Origin: a virus
Direction: 5' to 3' (one strand)
DNA: 23,420 bases
IMG/VR virus record: IMGVR_UViG_3300044987_001747
Span: 1-23,420 of that record
Shown here: one piece after another, positions 962-19,749 of the stretch
How the letters are laid out: every line of letters begins with the position of its first letter
Position numbering within the stretch: the first letter of the stretch is position 1
Notes under the pieces: generated by a model
Told to the model about the DNA's origin: nothing
Database searches by the model: none
What the model saw: the letters and a program-made list of their open reading frames with translations, nothing else
Program-made: the position numbers and the translations under genes

Positions 962-1837
962 ATGAAAATCATTATCACAGAAAACCAATTTAAATCTTTA
1001 TTAACGGAATCAATTGCTGATGATTCGGAATTAAGAGATATTATAAAAAATTATGAATCCACTGTTGTTGATTCAAAAGGTAACCATTATGTATTTGATG
1101 ATAAGGATTCAAAAAACCCAAAAACTTTTATTTCAAATAATAAACTAAAAAAGGGTGGAACATTAACAATTGGGTGGGGACATACAGGTAAAGAAGCGAC
1201 AATAGGAAATAAGATATTAAATTCAAAGGCCGAAGAGTTATTAACAAAAGATATTATAGAAAAAGAAAATATTGCAAAAAAAGTATTATTTCCAAAATAT
1301 GATAAGTACCCATTATATATACAAAGGGTATTAGTTAATACCGTGTTTAGGGGGGAGGCAAAAACATCTCATGAATGGGTAAGGGCAATAAATTCAGGTA
1401 ATTGGAGTTTAGCTGCTAAAAAATATGTGGAAGGATGGAACATTAATTTTTCTCAAGCAAAAGACCCCAAATATAAAGGTGGGGTTGCCAATAGAATGGT
1501 AAACAATCAAGAAGCATTTATTAAGTATGGTAATGAATTAAAAACAAAAAAACCTGTTGTTAAAAATTCCAAACCTGAAACCGAAAAACAAAGGTGTTTG
1601 AAAATGTTACCAAAGGAGTTGGTCTATAGACCTGAATGTGATAAGTACTTTAAAAGTAATTACAATATGGATTATGGTTATGATTTTCCTGAAATGTTTT
1701 ATACCGTAAAATCAGGTGATACTCTTTCGGGAATTGCATCAAAATACGGTAAATCTGTTACTGTGGATAAGTTAAGAAAGTTAAATAATTTAACGTCAGA
1801 TAATATCAAACCTGGACAAAGATTAAAAATAAAATAA
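962..1837 (+). CDS. Tag-B GH24-like lysozyme with C-terminal LysM domain
   Basis: This 291-residue protein has three parts. Residues 1-16 are a class-B tag (MKIIITENQFKSLLTE) ending in L-T-E before Ser. Residues about 20-185 resemble a GH24 (T4-type) lysozyme: a candidate catalytic Glu32 in NYES, the TIGWGHTG motif at 69-76 and a GVANRMVNNQEAF segment like the family's C-terminal helix. Residues 247-290 are a LysM peptidoglycan-binding domain (YTVKSGDTLSGIASKYG). Such an enzyme would cut the glycan strand of murein. There is no Sec signal; the tag occupies the position where one would be. The tag suggests that the enzyme is sorted into, or attached to, the virion rather than acting only as a free endolysin, but that is inference. 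Assignment of the domains is strong; the exact catalytic residues are not. Confidence 0.88.
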   Translation: MKIIITENQFKSLLTESIADDSELRDIIKNYESTVVDSKGNHYVFDDKDSKNPKTFISNNKLKKGGTLTIGWGHTGKEATIGNKILNSKAEELLTKDIIEKENIAKKVLFPKYDKYPLYIQRVLVNTVFRGEAKTSHEWVRAINSGNWSLAAKKYVEGWNINFSQAKDPKYKGGVANRMVNNQEAFIKYGNELKTKKPVVKNSKPETEKQRCLKMLPKELVYRPECDKYFKSNYNMDYGYDFPEMFYTVKSGDTLSGIASKYGKSVTVDKLRKLNNLTSDNIKPGQRLKIK

Positions 1838-6113: not shown

Positions 6114-6407
6114 ATGGCAAGAATTACAAGATTAACTGAATCCGATTTGTCTCGTATCGTTAAAAGAGTTATTATCGAAATGGATGACGATGATGATTAT
6201 GATAGTGATTTTGAAAATAAGTCGCTTAAAGAGTTAATAAAAATTGCTGAAGATTTTCTGTTAAACGAACTTGGATTTTCACCAGACGCAATCGATGAAA
6301 TTGATGAATGGTATATTATTGATGTTTTAAGAGACCACCATTATGATGAATTAGCGTCAGAAATAGAAGAAAAACTTTATGATAGTATTGATTATAGTGA
6401 TTTTTAA
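6114..6407 (+). CDS. Tag-A protein with acidic cargo
   Basis: This 97-residue protein begins with the class-A tag (RLTESDLSRIVKRVIIE at residues 6-22), basic and amphipathic, ending in I-I-E. The remainder is strikingly acidic (MDDDDDYDSDFE, then DEIDEWYIIDVL). The charge reversal at the tag/cargo boundary fits a removable targeting peptide. The gene follows a terminator and TATTTAT cassette and lies 32 nt upstream of the next tagged gene, probably in one transcript. Cargo function unknown. Confidence 0.82.
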   Translation: MARITRLTESDLSRIVKRVIIEMDDDDDYDSDFENKSLKELIKIAEDFLLNELGFSPDAIDEIDEWYIIDVLRDHHYDELASEIEEKLYDSIDYSDF

Positions 6408-16684: not shown

Positions 16685-17116
16685 ATGAGTAAAGTAAAAA
16701 TTTCTACAAGCAAAGGTGATATGATTGCTGAGTTGTATGACAACGAAACGCCAATCACCACAGAAAACTTCAAAAGTTTAATTAGTAAAAAATTCTATGA
16801 CGGACTAAACTTCCACAGAGTTATTCCAAACTTTGTAATCCAAGGTGGATGTCCTAATGGAGTTGGTAATGGTGGTCCAGGATACAACATTACATGTGAA
16901 GTAACCGCACCAAAACAATTCCACGAAAAAGGTGTGTTGTCAATGGCTCACGCTGGACGTAACACAGGTGGTTCTCAGTTCTTCATATGTCATAACAGAC
17001 AAGGAACACAACACCTTGATGGAAACCATACCTGTTTTGGTAAAGTCATGGAAGGACTTGAAATAATTGACCAAATACAACAAGGAGATAAGATTAACTC
17101 AATTGAAATTATTTAA
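16685..17116 (+). CDS. Cyclophilin-type peptidyl-prolyl cis-trans isomerase
   Basis: This 143-residue single-domain cyclophilin would catalyse cis-trans isomerisation of Xaa-Pro bonds. The motif FHRVIPNFVIQGG (43-55) contains the catalytic Arg45. GSQFFI (96-101) and LDGNHTCFGKV (111-121) complete the active site, with His115 in place of the Trp of human cyclophilin A, as in many bacterial enzymes. There is no signal peptide, so it acts in the cytoplasm. It is close to the minimal length for the family. Codons are more C-rich than those of neighbours (AAC, TTC, CAC), pointing to acquisition from a bacterial host. It probably assists folding of phage or host proteins. Confidence 0.95.
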   Translation: MSKVKISTSKGDMIAELYDNETPITTENFKSLISKKFYDGLNFHRVIPNFVIQGGCPNGVGNGGPGYNITCEVTAPKQFHEKGVLSMAHAGRNTGGSQFFICHNRQGTQHLDGNHTCFGKVMEGLEIIDQIQQGDKINSIEII

Positions 17117-17632: not shown

Positions 17633-18118
17633 ATGAGAAGAGTTCAAAGATTGACAGAAAGAGATTTAACAAGATTAGTTAGACGAGTTTTAAGAGAAGA
17701 AGATGACCGAAAATTCTGCCACGGTGGAAATGTAAAATCTCTTGAGGAGATTGTTGGTCATGATGAACCACAAGATTATATTGAAGGTGTAAAGATTAGA
17801 CCAACTGGAGTTAACGGCTTAGTTGATAAATTAGAGTTATTAAAAACTCTTAGGTTACACCCAAAAGTCTCTGATGGTGGTGAACATTTGGCAAGTGAGG
17901 TAATGAACCATTTAAAAAGTTTTAAACCTTACAATTATTTTGATGAAACAAAAAAAGAGTGTGGTGGGGCAATGGACAAGATTATTGAACTTTACAAAGA
18001 AAACGAACACGGGGAAGAACTTGTTAAAGACATTGAATCGGTTTATAGAATGCAACATGTGTCCCCAAGAGCAAAAGAATTCTTAAAACATGGAATGGGA
18101 ATGATTAAAGGTCAATAA
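17633..18118 (+). CDS. Tag-A protein
   Basis: This 161-residue protein starts with the class-A tag (RLTERDLTRLVRRVLRE at 6-22), followed by an acidic junction (EDDRKFCHGG). The cargo is largely helical and contains three or four His and two Cys (FCHGGN, KKECGG). No known fold is recognised. A strong terminator directly after the gene ends the transcript. It lies far (about 6.4 kb) from the other tag-A genes, showing that the tag is dispersed rather than clustered. Confidence 0.82.
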   Translation: MRRVQRLTERDLTRLVRRVLREEDDRKFCHGGNVKSLEEIVGHDEPQDYIEGVKIRPTGVNGLVDKLELLKTLRLHPKVSDGGEHLASEVMNHLKSFKPYNYFDETKKECGGAMDKIIELYKENEHGEELVKDIESVYRMQHVSPRAKEFLKHGMGMIKGQ

Positions 18119-19522: not shown

Positions 19523-19581
19523 TATTATAATAATATAATAAAAATTATCAAAAAATGTATGTTAATTAAACTTGACATAAA

Positions 19582-19656
19582 AAAGAGGGGTAGCGAATCC
19601 CTCTTTAATTTGTTACCGAAACAGTAACGGTCCTAAAATCCCCAAATTAATTGGGG
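19582..19656 (+). ncRNA. Three consecutive hairpins with 23S-rRNA-like segments (possible structured RNA)
   Basis: Between divergent genes, three hairpins follow one another: AAAGAGGG/CCCTCTTT (19582-19606) with loop GTAGCGAAT; GTTAC/GTAAC (19612-19628); CCCCAA/TTGGGG (19640-19656). Segment 19589-19597 (GGTAGCGAA) and segment 19625-19636 (TAACGGTCCTAA) equal, from memory, adjoining pieces of the universally conserved helix 69-71 region of 23S rRNA, but in reversed order. Terminator-like elements are unexpected between divergent genes, so a small RNA is possible. The strand is uncertain. Confidence 0.35.
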
Positions 19657-19665
19657 GGGCTTGTT

Positions 19666-19688
19666 TTATTATAAATATTTTATAATAA
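19666..19688. repeat. Perfect 10-bp inverted repeat
   Basis: TTATTATAAA, centre TAT, TTTATAATAA. A symmetric AT-rich palindrome beside the hairpin cluster, perhaps a protein-binding site or part of the divergent promoters. Confidence 0.45.
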
Positions 19689-19728
19689 TTAAAAATTAAG
19701 AGATTATCTCTCCTTTTTTATTTTCATA

Positions 19729-19735
19729 TATTTAT
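19729..19735 (+). promoter_or_regulatory. TATTTAT element, 14 nt before ATG
   Basis: TATTTAT precedes the ATG at 19750 with the same intermediate spacing as at 12205. Confidence 0.45.
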
Positions 19736-19749
19736 CTAATAAATGATAT

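Follow-up and report, generated by a model that had tools for sequence, protein, structure and literature searches.

A conserved candidate phage RNA with two sequences antisense to the helix 69 region of 23S rRNA

We describe a predicted structured RNA element, present once per genome in many large T4-like phages, that recurs in two architectures and presents two nearly invariant sequences antisense to adjoining parts of the helix 69 region of 23S rRNA, which ranks among the best conserved parts of the bacterial ribosome. We put the probability at roughly 0.6 that it is a trans-acting phage small RNA (sRNA) that pairs with this region in 50S subunits or their precursors and thereby adjusts translation in the host or the assembly of its ribosomes, a reading built on sequence comparison. 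The broader proposal, that a widespread set of T4-like and jumbo phages devotes a two-part antisense RNA to the universally conserved helix 69 region and so reprograms host ribosomes during infection, stands at about even odds.

Two segments of the intergenic region match 23S rRNA

The window analysed here is the whole 23,420-nucleotide stretch of IMG/VR virus record IMGVR_UViG_3300044987_001747. It contains a three-hairpin intergenic stretch (19523-19749) with divergent ORFs on either side, and the two 23S-like segments that the initial annotation placed there are present, GGTAGCGAA at 19589-19597 and TAACGGTCCTAA at 19625-19636. The latter is indeed the 3' side of helix 69 with the following linker (E. 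coli 23S nt 1917-1928). Relative to rRNA they stand in swapped order, as had been noted; E. coli rrlB has the contiguous sequence TAACGGTCCTAAGGTAGCGAA (nt 1917-1937). The hairpin around GGTAGCGAA had been likened to helix 71. That comparison did not survive: no 23S helix is copied, the stem sequence is free to vary and the loop alone is fixed.

Two such matches close together had also been judged improbable by chance. A 12-mer and an 8-mer adjacent in 16S or 23S rRNA were found in 24 of 600 dinucleotide-shuffled windows, and a looser test (11-mer plus 8-mer with wider spacing) was positive in 247 of 300. The match is modestly unusual, the evidence of the window alone is weak, and after these shuffles we dropped any claim of significance from the window alone. 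What makes the match significant is that other phages conserve it, and this decides the matter. The parts of the element are given in Table 1.

Table 1. Features of the element in the window (positions 5' to 3' on the plus strand; all features on the minus strand)
Feature	Position	Strand	Basis or remark
Proposed sRNA, ~85-90 nt	19578..19665	minus	5' end predicted
sRNA core matching the covariance model	19578-19639	minus	model R1
Promoter-like motif ATATTTAT, context AAAATATTTATAATAAAACAAG	19671..19678	minus	directly upstream of the element; putative promoter function
5' hairpin, CCCC...GGGG arms	19640..19659	minus	folds
Antisense element 1, TTAGGACCGTTA	19625..19636	minus	antisense to nt 1917-1928 of 23S rRNA (3' side of helix 69 plus linker)
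Hairpin P2, GTTACTG/CGGTAAC	19612..19628	minus	fold
Hairpin P1, intrinsic-terminator-like	19582..19606	minus	covariation; T-rich 3' end in type A relatives
Antisense element 2, P1 loop TTCGCTAC	19590..19597	minus	complementary to 23S nt 1930-1937
T-run 3' of P1	19577..19583	minus	sequence

The element is conserved among phages

An exact scan of IMG/VR for the segment pair in the order of the window returned at least 120 stretches, and a second IMG/VR scan at least 119. Among the matches listed in these two scans, together with those obtained by homology, there are 134 distinct elements, 76 of type A (the type of the window) and 58 of type C, the type C number being lower under stricter collapsing. 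A separate set of loci was collected through homologues of an upstream protein, thereby avoiding selection by the rRNA pattern. The element lies 3' of the stop codon in 33 of 37 such loci, and TTAGGACCGTT is present in 33/33 of these elements, with TCGCTAC invariant as well. The loop TTCGCTAC is exact in 30 of the 33 and is replaced by CTCGCTAC in the other three, and the P1 stem varies across the set while both antisense sequences stay. The link that had been drawn to helix 69 and the 1930s region of 23S rRNA is correct, and it is under constraint.

Of 36 related contigs, up to 322 kb long, 34 hold a single copy of the TTAGGACCGTT 11-mer; one of the two exceptional contigs has an extra 11-mer copy with no second loop nearby, and the other has none. 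The L145 contig has no element after the usual gene and a complete one elsewhere. The element was absent from the 84,980 cellular genomes scanned, where all eight pattern matches were accounted for. Six are 23S rRNA itself, one of them spanning a masked stretch, and the remaining two were set aside as likely coincidence in apparent coding sequence of two related bins. At the Rfam gathering score the window has no match to any family and 12 relatives yield tRNAs alone; an Rfam E-value search with the element returned sub-threshold matches alone.

Covariation supports the P1 hairpin in type A

The covariance check proposed in the initial annotation was run and was positive. Each of the seven outer P1 pairs shows changes on both sides across 61 sequences, and the helix is 96.9% paired. 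The overall covariation score in these sequences is 0.716, compared with 0.191 after shuffling (0/500) and at most 0.333 when slid. The P1 loop is invariant while its stem covaries, and compensatory P2 pairing (GTTGTC/GGCAAC) occurs in L163 and L168. Covariance model R1, built with the window left out, scored the window at 58.2 bits (E = 3.9e-10) on the minus strand. The element is a conserved structure with invariant unpaired seed sequences, as in trans-acting base-pairing sRNAs.

Type A elements consist of TTAGGACCGTTA, hairpin P2, hairpin P1 with the loop TTCGCTAC, and a T-run; the tail after P1 averages 7.4 T per 10 nt over 56 elements. In the window the order from 5' to 3' on the minus strand is ATATTTAT, a hairpin, TTAGGACCGTTA with P2, and P1 with the loop TTCGCTAC. 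The 5' hairpin is not constant, relatives having other hairpins or none.

Type C lacks the T-run 3' of P1, a point against the sRNA reading. Its first hairpin carries AGGACCGTTA in the loop, the loop of its middle hairpin pairs with the 3' tail, and its third hairpin has the loop TTCGCTACC, both antisense segments thus being presented in hairpin loops. Architectures A and C have nothing in common except the two antisense sequences. For the loop-tail pseudoknot, 0/5000 permuted pairings were as good in 19 hand-picked elements outside the commonest tail class, and in that commonest class (loop GCTGC, tail AAGTGAGC) no simple contiguous helix between loop and tail was found. The comparison of these 19 hand-picked elements suggests a pseudoknot for type C elements outside the commonest tail class. 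A likeness of the type C sequence CAGCAGCCGC to the 16S 530 loop was considered and rejected, this hairpin loop being variable and covarying with the 3' tail in divergent members.

Gene context favours a trans-acting RNA

A gene on the same strand ends at most 100 nt upstream of the element in 100 of the 134 cases (56/76 in type A, 44/58 in type C), and a gene on the opposite strand does so in 16/134 (12/76 and 4/58). The window and a few relatives have a stand-alone element with its own promoter-like motif; in most relatives it lies in a 3' UTR. In the window ATATTTAT stands shortly before the start codons of ten plus-strand genes (948, 5027, 7783, 9134, 10445, 12183, 15044, 17621, 18597 and 19728), with 18 copies against 9.3 expected, and may serve as a promoter in this group of phages. 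The promoter-like motif, the terminator and the flanking genes all point to the minus strand as the one most likely transcribed, which would make the RNA antisense to 23S rRNA.

The position in 3' UTRs counts against a trans-acting sRNA, since it would suit a role in cis as well. A cis-acting 3' UTR element, serving as terminator and mRNA stabiliser and perhaps tethering the mRNA 3' end to the 50S subunit after termination, would account for the frequent same-strand gene ends and for the terminator-like hairpin that closes type A. We nevertheless regard this as unlikely, given one copy per contig in 34/36, the stand-alone elements with a promoter-like motif, an invariant loop that a plain terminator does not need, and the diversity of the neighbours (37 clusters among 100 upstream genes, 41 among 90 downstream). 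A single copy per contig together with diverse neighbours favours an RNA acting in trans. An intrinsic terminator and nothing else, with a free loop and many copies, was rejected on the invariant loop and the single copy.

The element might instead be a guide or shield RNA, directing an enzyme to 23S rRNA or rDNA, or covering helices 69-70 against host toxins that cut there. Guide RNAs have similarly short bipartite complementarity, the target is universal in bacteria, and most phage contigs hold no second 11-mer copy; yet no partner gene accompanies the element, whose neighbours fall into about 40 clusters, and we consider this explanation quite improbable.

In L071 (2187-2234) and L100 (about 2301-2364) the element lies inside or beside phage tRNA genes. 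The window gene at 17633-18118 (+) is an apparent homologue of that for the 'TELVKDIERVL' protein, the element's usual upstream neighbour in many relatives; here the element is ~1.5 kb away and inverted.

Predicted target and proposed action

In E. coli rRNA both loops match solely at antisense 23S 1917-1928 and 1930-1937, side by side, and the target sequence is identical in the Flavobacteriaceae 23S of L122. The first module of the window RNA finds its best duplex across the whole 23S at 1906 onward (-29.2 kcal/mol), and the second loop at about 1928-1940 (-18.0 kcal/mol). P2 and antisense element 1 together resemble the antisense of the whole of helix 69, and the type A consensus TTAGGACCGTTATnGTTAnGG tracks the antisense of all of this helix when compared with TTAGGACCGTTATAGTTACGG.

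Alternatively, the loops of a conserved phage RNA could serve to bind some protein or RNA, with the likeness to 23S rRNA a coincidence; a match of this kind has about a 4% chance in a single window. We think this very improbable, as invariance falls precisely on the residues complementary to rRNA, both loops map to a single place, next to each other, and the match continues along helix 69. The initial annotation offered an RNA that mimics the intersubunit bridge region, or a decoy, read from the sense strand. This is barely credible: the plus-strand segments are identical in sequence to 23S rRNA, but the terminator, promoter-like motif and flanking genes are on the opposite strand, and the likely transcript is complementary to 23S rather than a copy. 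The same annotation also suggested that the sequence arose by recombination at a site of rDNA homing. This origin is excluded by compensatory conservation in 134 distinct phage elements of two architectures; such a remnant was also rejected on the absence of the element from cellular genomes, 23S itself and the likely coding coincidence apart.

As an antisense sRNA the element would be transcribed and act in trans, with the predicted antisense sequences TTAGGACC(GTTA) in the linker or hairpin and TTCGCTAC in the terminator loop. It would pair with 23S rRNA in free 50S subunits or in precursors still being assembled, both of which expose helix 69. Access is an assumption of this proposal, as the target sites are partly paired and buried in the mature 50S subunit. 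Simultaneous pairing of both segments would require the RNA to loop, because their order is reversed relative to a continuous antisense. Pairing would hinder subunit joining or 50S maturation and so shift translation capacity during infection, and the gain for the phage might lie in reduced host translation, in slower assembly or in protection of the site. Against this, a phage requires working ribosomes, and plain inhibition brings no obvious benefit.

Comparison with known systems

Bacteria and phages have trans-encoded base-pairing sRNAs, which are likewise short structured RNAs with loop seeds and a 3' terminator hairpin, often derived from 3' UTRs. The phage element differs in that its apparent target is rRNA rather than mRNA and its seeds are invariant across distant phages. 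Plant-virus 3' CITEs are viral RNA structures that present rRNA-complementary sequence, often in the 3' UTR, but they belong to eukaryotic RNA viruses, target the small subunit and act in cis. A relation to 23S rRNA has been proposed for the Rfam 23S-methyl RNA motif, which is cis-regulatory and found in Lactobacillales, whereas the phage element has no Rfam match. T4 RNA C and RNA D are stable small RNAs from the tRNA region of a T4-like phage, comparable in setting to the L071 and L100 elements; neither antisense sequence nor its complement is present in the RNA C/RNA D stretch.

To our knowledge no phage or bacterial sRNA has conserved targeting sequences antisense to large-subunit rRNA, and limited literature searches, covering open-access full text, turned up no case of a natural phage RNA complementary to 23S rRNA. 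A synthetic antisense PNA against the same helix is reported to inhibit the growth of E. coli (Kulik 2017, cited in PMC7038079), so helix 69 is a sensitive target; the PNA is man-made and not a natural RNA, and the phage element has two segments. If the present reading is true, the element would be nature's analogue of the antisense inhibitors aimed at helix 69 and would block either the joining of subunits or the assembly of the 50S. Confirmed pairing would reveal a new phage route to act on the ribosome, explain a recurrent 3' UTR element of uncultivated phages and point to a target already known as vulnerable, helix 69.

Phages with and without the element

Some elements have a T4 gp17-like terminase gene next to them; the nearest cultivated relatives of these terminases are in Flavobacterium phage immuto for type A (31%) and in Pseudomonas phage PA5oct for type C (54%). 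Short pattern matches and anatomy are the basis for three variants: CCCTTAGGACCGCC...GATTCGCTACCAC in PA5oct (NC_071039) at 115474-115609 on the plus strand, directly after the gp295 stop, another in its relative MIJ3, and a type A-like one in the uncultured huge phage LR745206. The PA5oct variant would allow testing in a cultivated phage.

The two-segment patterns were not found in T4 (including rnaC/rnaD), XacN1, 121Q, RaK2, SCTP-2, P-RSM4 or ACG-2014f. The long-spacing pattern was not found in Immuto, Phosso, Atu_ph07, Vibrio 2.275.O, Mel-JY01, LR756502, LR756508 or LR756511, a search that covers this pattern and leaves room for more divergent forms in those phages. INPHARED, searched by BLASTN with element sequences, yielded no true match, and matches in SCTP-2 and LR756504 were rejected as plain terminators without the loop.

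Other genes of the window

Many proteins of the window that otherwise differ carry at the N-terminus one of two common tags, which resemble either MKYIITESQYK or MRRITRLTERDLTRLVRRVIKE (plus-strand genes at 465, 962, 8310, 8707 and 12856, and at 6114, 6440, 9420, 10470, 10682 and 17633). By analogy with the T4 capsid-targeting sequences cut by gp21, these tags may be head-targeting signals of internal proteins. The gene at 962-1837 (+) encodes a phage lysozyme with a LysM domain and one of the shared tags in front, and that at 16685-17116 (+) a phage-encoded cyclophilin-type peptidyl-prolyl isomerase (Pfam PF00160).
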